Positions 6,091-15,869 of a stretch of 64,000 nucleotides of DNA are shown one piece after another. The translations under genes and the position numbers were made by a program. The notes under the pieces are model-generated. The model did not search any database. It saw only the letters and a list, made by a program, of their open reading frames with translations, and had not been told where the DNA came from. Every line of letters starts with the position of its first letter. The stretch's first letter is position 1. Source of the stretch: an uncultured Clostridia bacterium (GTDB taxonomy: Bacteria; Bacillota; Clostridia; Christensenellales; UBA1242); NCBI GenBank assembly GCA_930979925.1, contig CAKNIB010000007.1, forward strand, positions 1-64,000, read 5' to 3'.

Positions 6091-6110
6091 ACTAATGTGA
6101 GGTGATTATT

Positions 6111-7382
6111 ATGTTATTAAATTTTACATTTAAAAATTATAAGTCCTATGTAGATACTTGTGATTTTTCAATGGTGGCAAACAAGGATAAATCACACGAA
6201 GATAATTTAATTAATTTTGGGAAAGATAGAATTTCAAAAACAAGGATTATTTATGGAGCCAATGCTTCTGGAAAAACATCTTTTATAAATGCTATAGAAT
6301 TTATAAAAATCTTTTCTATGATGTCAAATAACTTAGTAGAAAATAATAGGATAGGAATTAGTCCATATAAATTTAGAGAAAATTCTTTGAGTGTTCCATC
6401 AGAATTTTCGTTAACATTTGTTAAAAATAATATTAAATATAGTTATAGTTTTAGTTGCACATTTGAAAAGGTTATCGATGAAAAACTTGATGTTTATAAT
6501 TCGGCTAAACCAACCAATATATTTACAAGAACGAACACTAATGATTACAAATTTAATACTGATGTGAGACAATTAAATGAAATTAAGACAAAGAATACTA
6601 AAAATAAATTATTCTTATTAACAGCAGCCACATGGAATTATGAAAAAGTAAAACCAGTTGTTGATTATATACTGAATGATATAATCATTTTACATGATAT
6701 TAGTCAGCCTACTAAGTATAACATAAGTTATATTATAGAAAACAATGACTTGGAAGAATATAAAAAGTTTTGTTTAGATTTTTTAAATAATGCCGATATA
6801 AGTATTAGTGATTTCCAAATAAATACACAAAAAATAAAAGAGTTAGGTAAACAGGCCGAATTAATGACAAAACTTATGAATGTCATCGTTAATAGTGACC
6901 CTGAGCAAATGAAGAAGTTTGGTAATTCAGATATATTTAATATTAAAACCATTCATAATATTAAAAGTGGAGAAAACTCATCTAATTATCCATTAGAGTT
7001 AATTGAAGAATCGGATGGAACACAACAGTTATTTCATTTTGCACCAGCATTATTTTACACATTTAAGGAAGGGAAAACTTTATTTATAGATGAAATTGAT
7101 AGGAGTTTACATCCTTTACTTGTGGAATACATTATTAAGAAGTTTTATGATAATGAATTAAATAAAAATAATGCTCAGCTGATTTGTAATACGCATGATA
7201 CAAATTTACTTAACCTTGATATATTTAGAAGAGATGAAATATGGTTTACAGAAAGAAATAATAATACTGCCACAACGGAAATGTATGCTCTTTCGGATTT
7301 CTCTCCAAGAAAAGATGAAAATATAGAAAAGGCATATTTGCTTGGAAGATATGGCGGTATCCCTTTTATTAAGGAGGGATAA
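6111..7382 (+). CDS. rloA: RloA-like AAA ATPase (AbiL-like defence pair)
   Basis: 423-aa ABC-type (AAA_21/OLD-like) ATPase. N terminus LLNFTFKNYKSY is typical for this class; Walker A is GANASGKTS near residue 54 and the Walker B/signature end is TLFIDEIDRSLHP, followed by CNTHDTNLL (H-loop-like). The ORF track starts at GTG 6102, but that GTG lies within the AGGTGAT ribosome binding site, so ATG 6111 is better. It overlaps the downstream RloB gene by one base. RloA/RloB pairs are found in restriction-modification loci, and the related AbiL pair is an abortive-infection system: the ATPase would sense infection and license the partner nuclease (inference from family). Confidence 0.83.
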   Translation: MLLNFTFKNYKSYVDTCDFSMVANKDKSHEDNLINFGKDRISKTRIIYGANASGKTSFINAIEFIKIFSMMSNNLVENNRIGISPYKFRENSLSVPSEFSLTFVKNNIKYSYSFSCTFEKVIDEKLDVYNSAKPTNIFTRTNTNDYKFNTDVRQLNEIKTKNTKNKLFLLTAATWNYEKVKPVVDYILNDIIILHDISQPTKYNISYIIENNDLEEYKKFCLDFLNNADISISDFQINTQKIKELGKQAELMTKLMNVIVNSDPEQMKKFGNSDIFNIKTIHNIKSGENSSNYPLELIEESDGTQQLFHFAPALFYTFKEGKTLFIDEIDRSLHPLLVEYIIKKFYDNELNKNNAQLICNTHDTNLLNLDIFRRDEIWFTERNNNTATTEMYALSDFSPRKDENIEKAYLLGRYGGIPFIKEG

Positions 7383-8005
7383 TGGTTAGGCATACAAAAG
7401 TCAAATTTTCAAAAAAACGAAATCCAATAATTGTCCTTATTTGTGAAGGAAGAAATAAGACCGAGACTAAATACTTTAATCATTTTATTAAAAGAGAAAA
7501 TCCATACAATTTAAAAATTGTTCCATCTGAAGCTACTGACCCTAAAAGTATGGCCAAGAAAGCTAGACAAGTTATTGATGATATGCAATTAGATAATAGA
7601 CTTGGTGATAGAGTTTTCTGTTTAGTAGATTTAGATTTATCGGATTCTCAATTTCAGAAAGTCGAAGACGAGAAAAAGAGAGTTAAAAAGAAATTCCAAG
7701 TGGAATTTATTTTATCAAATCCTTGTTTTGAAGTGTGGCTACTATATTATTTTACAAAACATCCTAAGCCAGAAATATCTTCACAAAAAGTAAAAGAACA
7801 ATTAAAGAAATATGTTCCACAATATACAGAGAGCTATGACATTGTTAAAGAATATAATTTACAAGAAAAGTTCGGTATAGCTATCAATAATTCAGATTTA
7901 AAAAACCAAATGTATGACAAAGAACAAAGCGCATTGGATAAAAATCCTTACACTGAAATTTCTGATTTATTAGATGTTTTATTGACATATAAAAAAGAAG
8001 AATAG
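7382..8005 (+). CDS. rloB: RloB-like protein (TOPRIM-type putative nuclease)
   Basis: 207 aa with the RloB hallmarks: basic N terminus, VLICEGRNKTETKYF (the Glu of a TOPRIM-like fold), CLVDLDLSDSQF (Asp pair) and FILSNPCFEVWLLYYF. Ribosome binding site AAGGAGGG overlaps the end of rloA and the genes share one base, so they are stoichiometrically coupled. The pair forms the first defence unit of the tRNA-Thr island. The nuclease role is inferred from the fold; no substrate can be read from sequence. Confidence 0.83.
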   Translation: MVRHTKVKFSKKRNPIIVLICEGRNKTETKYFNHFIKRENPYNLKIVPSEATDPKSMAKKARQVIDDMQLDNRLGDRVFCLVDLDLSDSQFQKVEDEKKRVKKKFQVEFILSNPCFEVWLLYYFTKHPKPEISSQKVKEQLKKYVPQYTESYDIVKEYNLQEKFGIAINNSDLKNQMYDKEQSALDKNPYTEISDLLDVLLTYKKEE

Positions 8006-8157: not shown

Positions 8158-8835
8158 ATGAACGATTTGGAGATAAAAAAACAAGCAAAAGAATTTGCAA
8201 ATTTTTGGGCTGATAAAGGTTATGAAAAAGGACAAAGCCAAGTTTTTTGGTTGACTTTATTAAATAAAGTTTTGGGTGTTGACAATCCGGAACAATATAT
8301 TTCTTTTGAAGATAAAGTTATGCTTGACCATACAAGTTTTATTGATGGCTATATTTCTGCTACACATGTTTTAATTGAACAAAAAAGTAGAGACCGAGAT
8401 TTAAGAAAAGCAATAAGACAAGCAGATGGAACTCTTCTTACTCCATTTCAACAAGCGAAAAGGTATTCTGCCGACCTTCCATACTCTAAAAGACCAAGAT
8501 GGATTATTACTTGTAATTTCCAAGAGTTTTTAATATATGATATGGAAAAACCTAATGGAGAACCTGAAAGCATATTGCTTAAAAATCTTCCAAAGGAATA
8601 TTATCGCTTACAATTTATTGTAAATAGTCAAAATGAAAATATTAAAAAAGAAATGGAAATATCCATTAAGGCTGGTGAAATTGTTGGTATTCTTTATGAC
8701 GCCTTGCTTAAACAATATAATGAAAAAGATGAACAAGAATTAAAAAGTCTTAACGAACTTTGTGTAAGACTTGTATTTTGTCTTTATGCTGAAGATAGTG
8801 CTTTGTTTGGCGGAAAGTTTGGCAGTTTTAAATGA
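8158..8835 (+). pseudogene. MmeI-like restriction/methyltransferase, 5' fragment only
   Basis: The 225 residues match the N terminus of class I / type IIL (MmeI-like) enzymes that join nuclease and adenine methyltransferase in one chain of about 900-1000 aa. Seen: the PD-(D/E)XK nuclease signature FIDGY...VLIEQKS, LTPFQQAKRYSADLPYSKRPRWIITCNFQEFLIYD, then the start of the helical linker (LCVRLVFCLYAEDSALFG). The methyltransferase and target-recognition parts are missing: after ALFG the frame runs 5 more residues into a stop. The next DNA codes, in another frame, for the C terminus of an unrelated protein (see findings). A deletion junction near 8812-8825 explains both. Ribosome binding site GGAG is present, so a nuclease-domain stub may still be made. 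Confidence 0.8.
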
Positions 8836-8885
8836 TGTTAAATTGCAGGTTGAAGAACTTGTCGACATCGTCAAAAGGAGGGAAA

Positions 8886-9167
8886 ATGAAGAAGAAATAT
8901 AAATCATACAGCTTTTGGACAGCTCTTTCTGGGGCAGTTGTTGTTTTATTGAATGCCTTAGGTGAATGTTTTGGCTTTTCTATCAACAATGATTTGGTAT
9001 CTGGGGTGATTATGGCTTTTGCTGGTGTCCTTGTTGTGCTTGGTATTGTGACTATGGATAAAAGTGAAGGAGATCAACCAGAAAGTGATTCACAACCTGA
9101 TGATACGGTTGAAGATGAGGAAAAACAAAACACAGAAGGGCAGGATGATAAAAATAAAACTGAATAA
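8886..9167 (+). CDS. Phage holin-like protein
   Basis: 93-aa protein with a basic start (MKKKYKSYSFWTALSGAVVVLL), two membrane segments (about residues 8-25 and 35-58) and a highly acidic, polar tail (DDTVEDEEKQNTEGQDDKN). This layout is typical of small holins of Firmicutes prophages, which make pores so that endolysin can leave the cell. The ORF track starts at 8832, but AAGGAGGG at 8875-8882 puts the start at ATG 8886. No endolysin or other phage gene follows, so it is a prophage relic. Confidence 0.6.
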   Translation: MKKKYKSYSFWTALSGAVVVLLNALGECFGFSINNDLVSGVIMAFAGVLVVLGIVTMDKSEGDQPESDSQPDDTVEDEEKQNTEGQDDKNKTE

Positions 9168-9177
9168 CACGACAAAA

Positions 9178-9262
9178 GGAGGCAAGAAAGGCTCTGTCCG
9201 AGCCTGAAAAGCTTTTGCTTTTCAAAGCAGGTTTGTTTCAAACCTGCTTTTTTCTTGCCTCC
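9178..9262. other. Perfect four-way-junction (cloverleaf) sequence
   Basis: An outer 12-bp stem GGAGGCAAGAAA / TTTCTTGCCTCC encloses three perfect hairpins placed back to back: GGCTC-TGTCC-GAGCC, GAAAAGC-TTTT-GCTTTTC and AAAGCAGGTTTG-TTT-CAAACCTGCTTT. Only one base (T at 9205 region) is unpaired outside loops, over 85 nt. It follows the holin stop by 10 bases and the last hairpin ends in a T run, so it can at least terminate transcription, but simple termination does not need the outer stem. 9263-9406 holds no gene. Confidence 0.7.
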
Positions 9263-9406
9263 AAGCAAACAACTTTAATTAAAGCCTCTTTAACCACCCC
9301 AAAAACTGATTTTAAGAACTTATACTTCCTTCCCAAAAATAATCAAAATAAGCTTTGTTTAGATAGTGCCAGTTTGAAAAGAGGGGAATAAATGTTTTTA
9401 ATAATA

Positions 9407-9439
9407 AAAAAAGCTCATGCGAGCAAAGTGAGCTTTTTT
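9407..9439. terminator. Bidirectional terminator
   Basis: AAAAAAGCTCA / TGAGCTTTTTT, 11-bp stem with an 11-nt loop and A/T runs on both sides. It serves the lipoprotein gene on the minus strand, which ends at 9513. Confidence 0.75.
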
Positions 9440-9512
9440 GTTTTTTATGAAATTTTTGTTGAAGCAAATCAGTTTTGTTTGTTGATTGAAAATCTTTTTA
9501 TGTTGGCAATTT

Positions 9513-11645
9513 TTAACTCATAACAGGCTTTTCATCAAGCATGATGTTTGCAATGCCTGTGTAGAACTTATAGTTTTTGTCAATGTTTCCAACTTCTTTA
9601 AGAACTTTGAATGTCACTTCAAGATAGTCACATCCATCTTCTCCGCTGAACATGTTTGGATTGAATCTTCCTGAGATGTAAGTGTAACCTTCTGGCAATT
9701 CATCTTGATCAAACTCTGGATTTGTCCCATATTCAACAACTTCATAATATTTTCTTACATCTGTTGTTCCAACAAGAACAAGTGGTTCGGTTGATACGAT
9801 AGGGTTGCCTTCATAGTTGCCTTCGCTTCCTACATCAGTCATAAGAATGCATTCACCAATGTTTGGGTTGAATGGATTTACATGCAAGTCTGGCAAACCA
9901 TCAAACACAACACCACTGCTGTGGTCATCAGGTGCAATGTAACCGTTGTCTGGGTCTGCAAGTGAGCCTTCTTGTCCTTCAAAGCCTCGCAAGTAGTTCA
10001 TATCATAAGAACCATCATAAACTCGAACTTGTTTTGAATCAATGACTGTCCTTGTGTTTGTTTCATGGTTGTAGTAGTTGAGGTCAACAATCACATCGAT
10101 GTATTCAGCATGCTCAGGGTCTTCTGCTGCGGCGGCGAGGTCTTCGGCTGTTGTTCCGTCAAGCCCTGCGTCATATTTGAGCGCAATCCATAAGCCACTG
10201 ACATAAACTTCATTTTTCATCATAAGTGCCACTGATTGATATTCAAGTGGTCTGATTGTTTGTGCACCTTCCACATAAACAGGGAATTGTGTGTCATCAG
10301 AAACTGCGTAAGTGTCGCCAGCATATTCAATGATTTCAGATGCGAGGAATCGGTCATCAATTGTGACATCTTCGCCGTCATCATCACCGATTTTAACCAA
10401 TGAGCAAACACCGTCGACAATGTTTCTTACAGCATTTTCATAATCTCTTCCAAGATCATGATTTGAAACAGATGCTTTGTCAAAATTGTATTTTACATAA
10501 GTCATTTGATTGTTTTCATCAAGAGTTACATAAGCTAAAACATCGGTATAATAATCAAAGAACATATCATCAGCATTGACTGCAGTTTCTCCAATGATGT
10601 TGTCTATGATCCAGTTTTCAATCTTAGTGATTTGCCTGTCAACAAGTCCTACATAAGAGCCTAAAATCTTGAATGTGTTTTTTGCTGAATTTAGTGCATC
10701 ATCCACAGATTGGAAATCTCCAATTCGGACTTCATAAGTTCCGTCTTTATTTGTTGTGACCGTGACTTCGGCAGGCTCTAGGTCAATTGCATAGCAATAA
10801 ATCACATATTCAAGAGTTTTTACATAATCGGAATAATGTTCAAAGTCTTTTGCGATTTCATCTGGGTTTGTGAATTCGCTACTTGATAGATAGAGTTCTT
10901 CATAATAATCACTATTAAAACGCACTGTTGTATAATAACTGTTTATTAAATCATTTGCCGATGCAGTTAAGTCTTCAGAATTTACATAAATATTATTGTT
11001 TTGATTTACAATATTTATTGCATCATTATTTTCATCAGCATAATATATATATGCTTTTATATTTTCTAAGGATGTGGTGTCGGGTTCAATAGTCCAATTC
11101 CATTTGACATTAGGGTTTGCACCTATAATATAAAAACTTGCGTCAACTGTTTCGCCATAACTTATAATATTGCCAAATGTATCCAATTCAACCAATTGCA
11201 TTTTGTTGACTTGTCCGATGGTGTTGACTTGATATCTTATGCTATCATATAGATATGGTATAAAATTTTCAATTGGGTGTGAGCTGTCTATCCATTCACT
11301 AGCAAAATCTGGTAAGTATATTGAGGCCGTTGCTTGTTGTGTTAGTCCGTAAGTTTGATAAAGCATATTCATAATATGATAGGCATACTGACCATAGTAA
11401 TCATTGGTTGTGCCTTCTTCAGCACCAGAACCTTGGTCATAGTCATAGTTGTCAGGGCGGTATAAGATTTTTGAACCTAACATATCTTCAGTGAAGCCAC
11501 CAACTTCTGGGAAGTCTGCTCCACCATCGCCGCCACCACCGCCGTCATCAGTGCTTGGCAAAAATATGCAACCTGTGCATGTGATTGCAAAACATACAAT
11601 CATAACAAAACTAAAAATTTTCAACCACAAACTTTTCTTTTTCAT
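9513..11645 (-). CDS. Large lipoprotein of unknown function
   Basis: 710 aa. The N terminus has a lysine-rich start, a hydrophobic segment and a lipobox ending TCTGC near residue 26, so the mature protein would be lipid-anchored on the outer face of the membrane. A Gly/Asp-rich linker (DDGGGGGDGGAD) follows. The remainder is acidic, rich in Asp, Asn and Tyr, with no enzyme motif that I recognise. It is flanked by terminators, so it is a single-gene unit, and it lies next to a second, proline-repeat lipoprotein. It might serve in adhesion or solute binding; nothing in the sequence decides this. Confidence 0.75.
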   Translation of the reverse strand: MKKKSLWLKIFSFVMIVCFAITCTGCIFLPSTDDGGGGGDGGADFPEVGGFTEDMLGSKILYRPDNYDYDQGSGAEEGTTNDYYGQYAYHIMNMLYQTYGLTQQATASIYLPDFASEWIDSSHPIENFIPYLYDSIRYQVNTIGQVNKMQLVELDTFGNIISYGETVDASFYIIGANPNVKWNWTIEPDTTSLENIKAYIYYADENNDAINIVNQNNNIYVNSEDLTASANDLINSYYTTVRFNSDYYEELYLSSSEFTNPDEIAKDFEHYSDYVKTLEYVIYCYAIDLEPAEVTVTTNKDGTYEVRIGDFQSVDDALNSAKNTFKILGSYVGLVDRQITKIENWIIDNIIGETAVNADDMFFDYYTDVLAYVTLDENNQMTYVKYNFDKASVSNHDLGRDYENAVRNIVDGVCSLVKIGDDDGEDVTIDDRFLASEIIEYAGDTYAVSDDTQFPVYVEGAQTIRPLEYQSVALMMKNEVYVSGLWIALKYDAGLDGTTAEDLAAAAEDPEHAEYIDVIVDLNYYNHETNTRTVIDSKQVRVYDGSYDMNYLRGFEGQEGSLADPDNGYIAPDDHSSGVVFDGLPDLHVNPFNPNIGECILMTDVGSEGNYEGNPIVSTEPLVLVGTTDVRKYYEVVEYGTNPEFDQDELPEGYTYISGRFNPNMFSGEDGCDYLEVTFKVLKEVGNIDKNYKFYTGIANIMLDEKPVMS

Positions 11646-13307: not shown

Positions 13308-14324
13308 ATGAAAGTTTATGAAATAGATAACTATGCTATACAAAAATTGGTTAATAATTTAATGGAACAAGGCTATAGCAATGACACTGTCAAAAAATGC
13401 AAACACTTATTAAACCAATTTTTTGAATATGCAATTGATAATAAATGGATACTTGTCAATCCTACACTAAAAGTAAAAATTAAAGGTAAACGGAATATTT
13501 ATCAAGCAAACGATGATGAAAAATATAAAGCAATGCCACCAGAGATTAGAGATAAATTTTTAAACGCATTAAATAAAGATGAAGCAAATTTTATCAAACC
13601 GCTTTGCATTACTCTTATGTTTGCGGGACTTCGCATTGGTGAGGCTCTTGCTTTAAAATGGAAAAATATAGACTTTGACAACAAGACAATAAAAGTTGAA
13701 AGAGCGATAACGCAAGTGCCTAAGTTTGATGAACAAGGTAATATTAAAGACCGAATAACAGTCATTGGCGATACGAAAACAACTTGCAGTGTAAGAGAAA
13801 TACCTGTTGCCGACATTGTTATAAAAACTTTAATACAGTGGAAGAATAAGCAGACGGATAGACAACAAAATAATCCTGATGTGTCTGCAATTTTAACATC
13901 TCCTACATCTTTTGTATTTGCTAATGATGATGGAAGTTATAGGACTTATTCGGGAACTAGAAAGATATTTGATAGGTTTAAACGAAGAAATAGACTGGAC
14001 AAATTCAATATTCACTTTCACGGATTAAGGCACACTTTTTCTAATATGCTTTTTGAAATGAACGAAAATCCAAAAGTTATTCAACAACTATTAGGACATA
14101 GAGATGTAAAAACAACAATAACTGTTTACAACTCTGTTAATAGTGATTATGTAAGAGAAGCAACCGATAGACTTAACACAAAAATTCAAGAAAAACAAAA
14201 AGAACAAGCCGAGGAATTCTCCAAATATGATATGACCGATGAAGAAATAGAACAAAGAATTTGTGAACTTGAAAGACTACAAGAGCAAAAGAAAAGGAAG
14301 AAAGAAAAAGATTTTGAGATGTAA
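13308..14324 (+). CDS. Tyrosine recombinase (integrase), N-terminally shortened
   Basis: 338 aa with all catalytic residues visible: Arg in AGLRIGEALALKW (about residue 105), the central Lys region, HGLRH (His-x-x-Arg, about 243), GHRDVKTT, and the nucleophile Tyr in TVYNSVN. Phage/ICE integrases of this type have about 380-440 aa with an arm-binding N-terminal domain; here only the last part of the core-binding domain (MKVYEIDNYAIQKLVNNL) remains and an in-frame stop lies just upstream. It lacks the domain that would bind the TTGACAGCAAAT arms. It ends QEKQKEQ...KDFEM, closely like the second integrase of this window. Probably the element's own integrase, now crippled. Confidence 0.85.
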   Translation: MKVYEIDNYAIQKLVNNLMEQGYSNDTVKKCKHLLNQFFEYAIDNKWILVNPTLKVKIKGKRNIYQANDDEKYKAMPPEIRDKFLNALNKDEANFIKPLCITLMFAGLRIGEALALKWKNIDFDNKTIKVERAITQVPKFDEQGNIKDRITVIGDTKTTCSVREIPVADIVIKTLIQWKNKQTDRQQNNPDVSAILTSPTSFVFANDDGSYRTYSGTRKIFDRFKRRNRLDKFNIHFHGLRHTFSNMLFEMNENPKVIQQLLGHRDVKTTITVYNSVNSDYVREATDRLNTKIQEKQKEQAEEFSKYDMTDEEIEQRICELERLQEQKKRKKEKDFEM

Positions 14325-14328
14325 AAAC

Positions 14329-14357
14329 TTGACTTTTTTAATCATTTATGGTAAAAT
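14329..14357 (+). promoter_or_regulatory. Promoter of the retron RNA
   Basis: TTGACT, 17-base spacer ending TATGG, TAAAAT: strong sigma-A promoter with extended -10. Transcription would start near 14364, inside an otherwise gene-free 330-base stretch, which is what a retron ncRNA needs. Confidence 0.75.
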
Positions 14358-14363
14358 TCTTCC

Positions 14364-14585
14364 ACTAATGCGATACGGTAAAATATAACTCCTGTTGTAA
14401 TTGGTTGATATTTTATATCAATGGACTTCTTTTGGGAAGGATTTCCCCTGGGCATCGTATCTGTGAGCATCTCTAGTATCAAGTCTCAAATGATTGTGAT
14501 GATGGAAATCTAGAACGATGTGCAGGAGTTGAGCACGGTTTCCGTGCTCATGAATAGATTGTGCTTTAGTTTATACCGTTATTAC
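14364..14585 (+). ncRNA. Candidate retron msr-msd RNA
   Basis: A gene-free, structured stretch between a strong promoter and the retron ORFs. Seen: TTGATAT-TTT-ATATCAA (14405-14421), GGGAA/TTCCC hairpin (14434-14447), a perfect 9-bp stem TGAGCACGG-TTT-CCGTGCTCA (14530-14550) suitable as msd hairpin, and a long-range pair ACGGTA (14375) / TACCGT (14574) that could be the a1/a2 stem. A competing GATACG/CGTATC pairing (14372/14456) exists. Exact ends and the branching G cannot be fixed by eye. Confidence 0.6.
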
Positions 14586-14656
14586 CTCAATTTTGTTATA
14601 TGGTGCAGGAGACCACTTAATGTGGGCAAATAACAAAAAAGGAGGTAAACCAAATT

Positions 14657-14869
14657 ATGAAGAAGAACAATAATTCATCTTCAACTGTTGTTAATATTAC
14701 AGGAAATAATAATACTGTAATAATTAATGACTCTACTAGATCAGTTAAAAAGACTGGCAAAAAGAAAAAGTCATTTAAGACTTGGTTAAAAGCATTAGGT
14801 AAACTTATTCGTTCCGCATTTGTAAATATTTCAGTTCTTCTAATAGAAATATTTGCAAAGTTGGGATAA
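14657..14869 (+). CDS. Small retron-associated protein (candidate effector)
   Basis: 70 aa with a strong AGGAGGT ribosome binding site. Three parts: a polar Asn/Ser/Thr/Val segment (STVVNITGNNNTVIIND) likely forming beta strands, a very basic patch (KKTGKKKKSFK), and an amphipathic to hydrophobic C terminus (LGKLIRSAFVNISVLLIEIF) that could enter a membrane. It sits between the retron RNA and the reverse transcriptase and overlaps the latter by 17 bases in another frame. Retrons act as guards of a toxic effector; a membrane-active small protein would fit that role, but this is inference and the protein matches no family I know. Confidence 0.7.
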   Translation: MKKNNNSSSTVVNITGNNNTVIINDSTRSVKKTGKKKKSFKTWLKALGKLIRSAFVNISVLLIEIFAKLG

Positions 14870-15869
14870 GCACAACCAATTCAAATATAATGAGGTTTAC
14901 CCTTTGGAATATAAAAATTGTTATTTGTATGGATTAAAATCCAAAAAGAAATTGTTAGAGCTTTTGCATATTGATAGAAAGGTATACTGCAAAAGTTCTT
15001 TTCTTAATTGTAAAATTAAGCCATATATTGATATTAATAAAAATAAGAAAAAAAGATTAGTAGAAGCTCCAGATGAAGATATAAAGAATATTCAATCAAT
15101 TATTTTAAGGGCTTTGCAAATGATAAAAGTGCCTAATTATGCCTTTTCAGGAATTAAAGGTAAATGTTATATAGACAATGCAAAAGTCCATTCTAACAAA
15201 AAATACTTATTTAAAATAGATATTTCCAAATTTTTCCCCAATATTGGAAGAAATAAAGTTTATAATTTTTATCTTAATAAACTTAAAACATCTCCAGATG
15301 TGGCAAATATTTTAACAAACTTATCAACAATAAACCTTGATTTAAAAAATCAAAATACTAAAACAATGTCAAAAGTAAATGAGTTTATAAACGATGCAAA
15401 TATCAAAAAAAGAAATCATTTAATTACGGGGTCTCCTTTAAGTTCTATAATGTCTTACTTTGCAAATGTTGATATGTTCGAAGAAATTAACAAAATAGCA
15501 TTAAAATATAAAATAACAATGACCGTTTATGTAGATGATGTTGTCTTTTCTTCTAATCACAAAATACCATACTTTTTTCGAAAAAATATTTTAAAGATTA
15601 TAAGTAAGAATTCTTATGATGTATCTGTGAAAAAATGCAAATGGTATAATGTGCCTGAAAATAAAAAAGTAACTGGTGTAATATTGGATAAAAACGGGAA
15701 GATGCAAGTTCCTAACAGACTAATGCTAAAAACTCATAATTATATTCAGGAAGTTAAGAATGGCGATAAAACTAATATTAATAAATTGCAAGGATGTTTA
15801 GTTGTTGCAAATTCAATAAATGGGAAATTGAAAGAACTTAGAGGACAACTAAAGAACATAAAAAATTGA
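14853..15869 (+). CDS. Retron reverse transcriptase
   Basis: 338 aa, right size for retron RTs (about 300-350). Features: fingers with KKKRLVEAPDE, the retron-specific NAxxH motif as NAKVH (109-113), first catalytic Asp in KIDISKFF (about 123), the YVDD active site (226-229), and the retron VTG motif in the thumb (KKVTGVILDK, about 273). No maturase or HNH domain, so not a group II intron. It makes branched msDNA from the RNA upstream. The start is uncertain: TTG 14853 overlaps the small ORF and has no clear ribosome binding site; a start at a later TTG or translational coupling is possible. A terminator follows. Confidence 0.9.
   Translation: MQSWDKHNQFKYNEVYPLEYKNCYLYGLKSKKKLLELLHIDRKVYCKSSFLNCKIKPYIDINKNKKKRLVEAPDEDIKNIQSIILRALQMIKVPNYAFSGIKGKCYIDNAKVHSNKKYLFKIDISKFFPNIGRNKVYNFYLNKLKTSPDVANILTNLSTINLDLKNQNTKTMSKVNEFINDANIKKRNHLITGSPLSSIMSYFANVDMFEEINKIALKYKITMTVYVDDVVFSSNHKIPYFFRKNILKIISKNSYDVSVKKCKWYNVPENKKVTGVILDKNGKMQVPNRLMLKTHNYIQEVKNGDKTNINKLQGCLVVANSINGKLKELRGQLKNIKN

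Follow-up and report, generated by a model that had tools for sequence, protein, structure and literature searches.

The 85-nt sequence at 9178-9262 of the window (the whole stretch of 64,000 nucleotides analysed here, which belongs to the uncultured Clostridia genome termed G000) probably belongs to a genus-specific class of palindromes that are dispersed between genes, conserve their shape, spread in a MITE-like manner and, at this locus, serve as a terminator. The class is present in many copies at unrelated sites, its arms covary and its copies are biased in orientation. The host genus comprises small-genome Clostridia and, according to the best reading, the class is specific to this genus. 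Elements of the class are 85-120 bp long and consist of an outer stem around exactly three hairpins, with hardly any linker bases, and almost all of their copies are intergenic. We infer from anatomy, without sequence homology, that the subclass found after holin and hslU genes, a second family of the own genome (family A) and the elements of genome G055 constitute one class.

Fold of the element downstream of the holin gene

The four-way junction that the preliminary description had claimed at 9178-9262 was confirmed by RNAfold. The minimum free energy is -51.5 kcal/mol vs a mean of -22.8 (sd 3.1) for 200 dinucleotide shuffles, none of which was as low (0/200; z -9.3), and the minimum free energy structure is identical with the centroid structure. 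In this fold an outer stem of 11 bp encloses exactly three hairpins, H1 (6 bp), H2 (7 bp) and H3 (12 bp), which is equivalent to the partition of 12/5/7/12 bp proposed earlier, and the only unpaired base outside the loops, also anticipated, is position 9251. The 5′ arm of the outer stem, GGAGGCAAGAA (9178..9188, plus strand, as all arms given here), begins 10-11 nt downstream of the holin stop codon and together with 9189 contains the class motif GGCAAGAAAG, which is common to other holin- and hslU-site elements. It pairs with the 3′ arm TTCTTGCCTCC (9252..9262), so that GGAGG (9178-9182) is joined to CCTCC (9258-9262), in agreement with the suggested pairing of the holin-side AGGAGG with its complement. 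Between these arms lie H1 (AGGCTC / GAGCCT, loop TGTCC; 9189..9205), H2 (GAAAAGC / GCTTTTC, loop TTTT; 9206..9223) and H3 (AAAGCAGGTTTG / CAAACCTGCTTT, followed by TTTCTT; 9224..9250). The complementary strand of the element folds equally well.

Among the sites of the region, H3 with its TTTCTT is the most terminator-like: it is a GC-containing hairpin (9224-9250) with a T-run behind it on the transcribed strand, and it resembles an intrinsic terminator of the holin operon. The window copy probably terminates a decayed late operon of phage-like type, while the outer stem may additionally sequester the Shine-Dalgarno-like AGGAGG.

Versions of the element after holin and hslU

The 260 nt that follow the holin stop codon were compared in all fetched genomes. 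At most holin loci of the genus only an ordinary single-hairpin terminator is present in the place of the cloverleaf. Four-way junctions with three hairpins occur at the holin 3′ end in at least eight independent versions, i.e., that of G000 and G119 (identical), that of the second G000 holin, and those of G032/G060, G008, G055, G115, G109 and a MAG contig in L092. In each of them 80-86% of bases are paired and the outer stem contains the motif AAGAAA...TTTCTT, the inner arms resemble one another no more than shuffled controls do (mean identity 0.49 vs 0.44), and neither arms nor loops hold a recognition sequence conserved across the versions. The outer stem and the three hairpins are kept at homologous positions with compensating changes, which was the outcome looked for when other copies and covariation were to be checked. 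A search for GCAAGAAAG-(52-82)-CTTTCTTGC in 101 genus genomes gave eight matches, all of them cloverleafs, of which four are located after holin, four (two sequences) after hslU and none elsewhere.

Alternatively, the element might be just an elaborate intrinsic terminator, kept by selection at the RNA level (3′-end formation or mRNA protection), with the extra hairpins as tolerated decoration and the element never having moved. In all eight holin-site versions, read in the direction of the holin gene, a T-run follows H3 or the outer stem, the 12-bp H3 of the window is terminator-like, and a plain terminator occupies the same place at most other holin loci. Nevertheless, this explanation is unlikely. 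No T-run follows the stem in the hslU-site elements, in family A and in most of the G055 elements; exactly three hairpins within a closing stem are not needed for termination; and family A is found at 14 sites with unrelated flanks. The earlier proposal that the sequence is more than a terminator holds inasmuch as the whole cloverleaf is conserved as a unit, although a terminator role is likely for the window copy.

Family A and the elements of G055

With a scanner that considers shape only (exactly n hairpins with short linkers inside an outer stem of 8 bp or more), applied to 1.09 Mb of the own genome, family A was found, whose members are 111-119 bp long and closed by the outer stem GAGGCTTGC/GCAAGCCTC. 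A profile search established 14 copies in the own genome, none of them inside an ORF (a fifteenth row was a palindromic self-match and was removed from the count), and the outer stem GAGGCTTGC was absent from all 60 other genus genomes searched. For ten copies, 97.5% of cells are paired vs 88.9 in shuffled alignments, two-sided changes affect 18 of 49 pairs vs 7.2, double-change cells number 44 vs 11.2 and the covariation score is 0.312 vs 0.128; in slid-partner controls at most 4 pairs and at most 7 cells had double changes. Since these copies were found via the outer stem or sequence similarity, the way in which they were searched for does not itself produce the covariation of their inner arms. 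Counts of G:U vs A:C, meant to tell which strand folds, comprised too few cells to compare. The flanks of the copies are mutually unrelated (identity 0.26-0.33), which implies that copying does not extend beyond the outer stem, and no direct repeat that could represent a target-site duplication was seen in the flanks of nine copies. Family A thus consists of many discrete copies with unrelated flanks and, when the outer stem is taken as such, terminal inverted repeats, as is characteristic of MITEs. Its orientation is biased: when the copies are read in the direction of the family, 13 of the 14 are antisense to local genes (p ~0.002).

A scan of 480 kb of G055 returned 27 three-hairpin matches (~25 clear), two of which overlap an ORF call or are contained in one, vs ~1 in the two-hairpin scan, none in the four-hairpin scan and one per shuffle. 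Twelve of these elements have a loose common framework (mean identity 0.55) and differing arms, and all twelve are antisense to local genes (p ~0.0005). Some G055 copies sit inside larger repeated leader regions, which indicates that larger duplications also contribute and that not every copy moved alone. Cloverleafs of other sequence were detected in other genomes of the genus as well, and 609 kb of control DNA from other genera or more distant sources contained a single weak match. A pattern scan of the genome collection yielded 33 matches; those among them that form a three-hairpin cloverleaf all belong to uncultured Clostridia MAGs and the remainder look like chance. The pattern matches in viral contigs were rejected, as none folds as a cloverleaf, and an apparently conserved three-hairpin match in L229 and L275 was dropped because it overlaps a tRNA in L229.

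The compensatory changes described above are typical of structured RNA, and some G055 copies reside in a 5′ leader, just downstream of a poly-G promoter, so one may ask if the element acts as RNA (as a small RNA, as a leader or as a processed 3′-UTR RNA), with a protein or the ribosome reading its shape. We consider this improbable, more so than the terminator explanation. The versions lack a conserved recognition sequence in loops or arms, the orientation in two families is fixed antisense to the neighbouring genes, both DNA strands fold equally well, and when the window and 12 element-bearing loci were compared with Rfam 15 only tRNAs scored above the gathering score. The processed RNA that had been listed among the early suggestions finds no particular support in the analysis.

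Several promoters and further palindromes were also noted. The own genome contains 22 strong sigma-70-type promoters with a G7-G10 run between -35 and -10 (TTGACAAAAAAGTCGGGGGGGGTACAAT), e.g., L219:8636(-), L218:7098(-) and L195:18801(+); some of them precede TasA/BspA-like surface proteins, and they are candidates for phase-variable promoters. G055 has a comparable promoter set with the run GCGGGGGGGTATAAT. In L223 two near-identical three-hairpin palindromes (8919-9002 and 9057-9140) with the outer stem GCTATGTGATG are located 55 bp apart.

Relation to known repeats

REPINs and the intergenic stem-loop repeats of Borrelia (PMC2674063) are the nearest known ideas. Like REP, REPIN and BIME sequences, the elements are short, palindromic, intergenic, present in many copies per genome, orientation-related and able to fold single-stranded. 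They differ in shape and size, with 85-120 bp folded into a four-way cloverleaf where REP-type sequences have one or two hairpins of 20-40 bp; their ends are GGAGGCAAG or GAGGCTTGC and not those of a GTAG/CGTC-tagged 20-40 bp palindrome; and, unlike in REP/REPIN-RAYT systems, the arms are not conserved in sequence and there is no RAYT-type Y1 gene in the own genome or in G055. A Y1 transposase as the mobiliser was rejected on this ground, as Y1_Tnp (PF01797) was detected in 6 of 61 genus genomes and in neither of these two key genomes. The Borrelia plasmid repeats are likewise dispersed and intergenic, and compensatory base-pair changes preserve their stem-loops, whereas they belong to spirochaete plasmids and have recognisable sequence homology, and a closed three-hairpin cloverleaf does not figure in the abstract on them (PMC2674063).

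The resemblance to other systems is more limited. MITE-like repeats (ERIC, BOX, Correia, RPE) are short non-coding units with terminal inverted repeats, located between genes and defined by conserved sequence. The elements described here are also short non-coding inverted-repeat units scattered between genes, but the junction is conserved in place of the sequence, and no partner transposase, target-site duplication or pair of occupied and empty sites came to light; of the features that define MITEs, the class shares only those of distribution. The nearest relative compared for empty sites was G119, whose groEL is ~77% identical and whose sequence beyond the holin block has diverged too far for such a comparison. 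Integron attC sites are imperfect palindromes as well, with structure conserved above sequence and species-specific families, yet attC identity was ruled out, as the outer arms are devoid of the RYYYAAC / GTTRRRY core boxes; moreover, there is no cassette array and the elements lie beside housekeeping genes. With Rho-independent terminators the window copy shares H3 and its T-run, and all holin-site copies share a T-run, whereas the outer stem closes three hairpins and the hslU and family A copies have no T-run. A literature search retrieved no description of a shape-conserved dispersed cloverleaf class, and multi-branched elements are not mentioned in the text of a 2026 inverted-repeat survey (PMC13155455).

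Proposed mechanism

For the dispersed palindromes of conserved shape that we favour, it can be proposed that copies spread as discrete short units, similarly to MITEs, and probably through a single-stranded folded form. The paired arms may stay perfect via selection for the junction or via templated palindrome (quasi-palindrome) repair. The orientation bias of family A and of the G055 set fits insertion or folding tied to the direction of replication or transcription. Several lineages would have recruited the cloverleaf at the holin 3′ end to terminate a phage-like late operon intrinsically.

A further-reaching version of this model, which is possible but which we put forward tentatively, assumes that the four-way junction itself is heritable and recognised. 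The class would then be a Holliday-junction-like DNA cloverleaf that forms single-stranded at the replication fork and is copied or maintained by a shape-reading enzyme. With such an enzyme the arms would be free to turn over, but always in pairs. A high-copy element with unconstrained arm sequences and a strict three-hairpin shape would point to recognition of junction geometry (in DNA or RNA) or to repair that rewrites both arms at once, in contrast to the dispersed bacterial palindromes of REP type, which are recognised by sequence. Differing sequences at one site in related species constitute a natural experiment on palindrome evolution, and such a class would escape every sequence-based repeat finder.

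The holin gene and its surroundings

The holin-like gene upstream of the cloverleaf (8886..9167, plus strand) encodes a 93-aa protein that matches holin phrog_297 in PHROG (E 2.7e-11) and Phage_holin_1 in Pfam (E 5e-4, slightly below the cut-off). Of 60 other genomes of the genus, 56 contain the gene, usually as a single copy, and the own genome contains it twice. In G119 (L249) it closes a compact phage-like cluster with genes for portal, scaffold-like, major capsid, connector, tail and BhlA-like proteins, which is deleted upstream of the holin gene in the window, where the cloverleaf is still present. What is left is the 3′ remnant of a BhlA/UviB-like gene (8817..8902, plus strand), recognised by alignment with the intact L249 locus (the intact protein matches phrog_2429) and fused by the deletion to a truncated MmeI-like gene (8158-8835). 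The region 8158-8902 is an illegitimate deletion junction, with the fusion at the microhomology TTTGGCGGAAAG.

It is very improbable that the element serves this cluster as a site peculiar to a phage or satellite (for packaging, recombination or resolution): it does follow the cluster's last gene directly, and its versions recur at that position at least eight times, but the same subclass is found after hslU and the same anatomy in many ordinary intergenic regions all over the chromosome, most holin loci have no cloverleaf, the element persists where the cluster of the window is lost, and a comparison of element DNA with phages and plasmids gave no match. The phage link suggested at the outset is retained for the window copy, which ends a phage-like late operon, and not for the class, which is neither holin- nor phage-specific; the analysis gave nothing in favour of a packaging or recombination site in particular.

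Portal, scaffold, capsid, connector and tail genes and the second holin gene are retained in the own genome on contigs 15 and 19. The phage-like cluster with two holin-like genes spans L249 2573-9700 in G119, occurs in L027 (own contig 19) and lies near the holin gene in most genus genomes; it is possibly a domesticated or GTA-like element. The window region 8806-10455 is ~97% identical to L249, yet groEL of the own genome and of G119 are ~77% identical, and, judging from this alignment, the block of holin gene, cloverleaf and lipoprotein gene looks recently exchanged as a whole. The exact element of the window is common only to G119, within this 1.6-kb block. The alignment also revealed ~38 nt that are extra in the window (9261..9299) and begin at the 3′ border of this element. 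The truncated MmeI gene is adjoined by an AAA ATPase and RloB pair (6102-8005), an RloAB-like defence module. Further downstream, at 13308-15869, a tyrosine integrase, a small 70-aa ORF and a reverse transcriptase (RVT_1) stand in a row, which is a candidate retron-like or other RT element.
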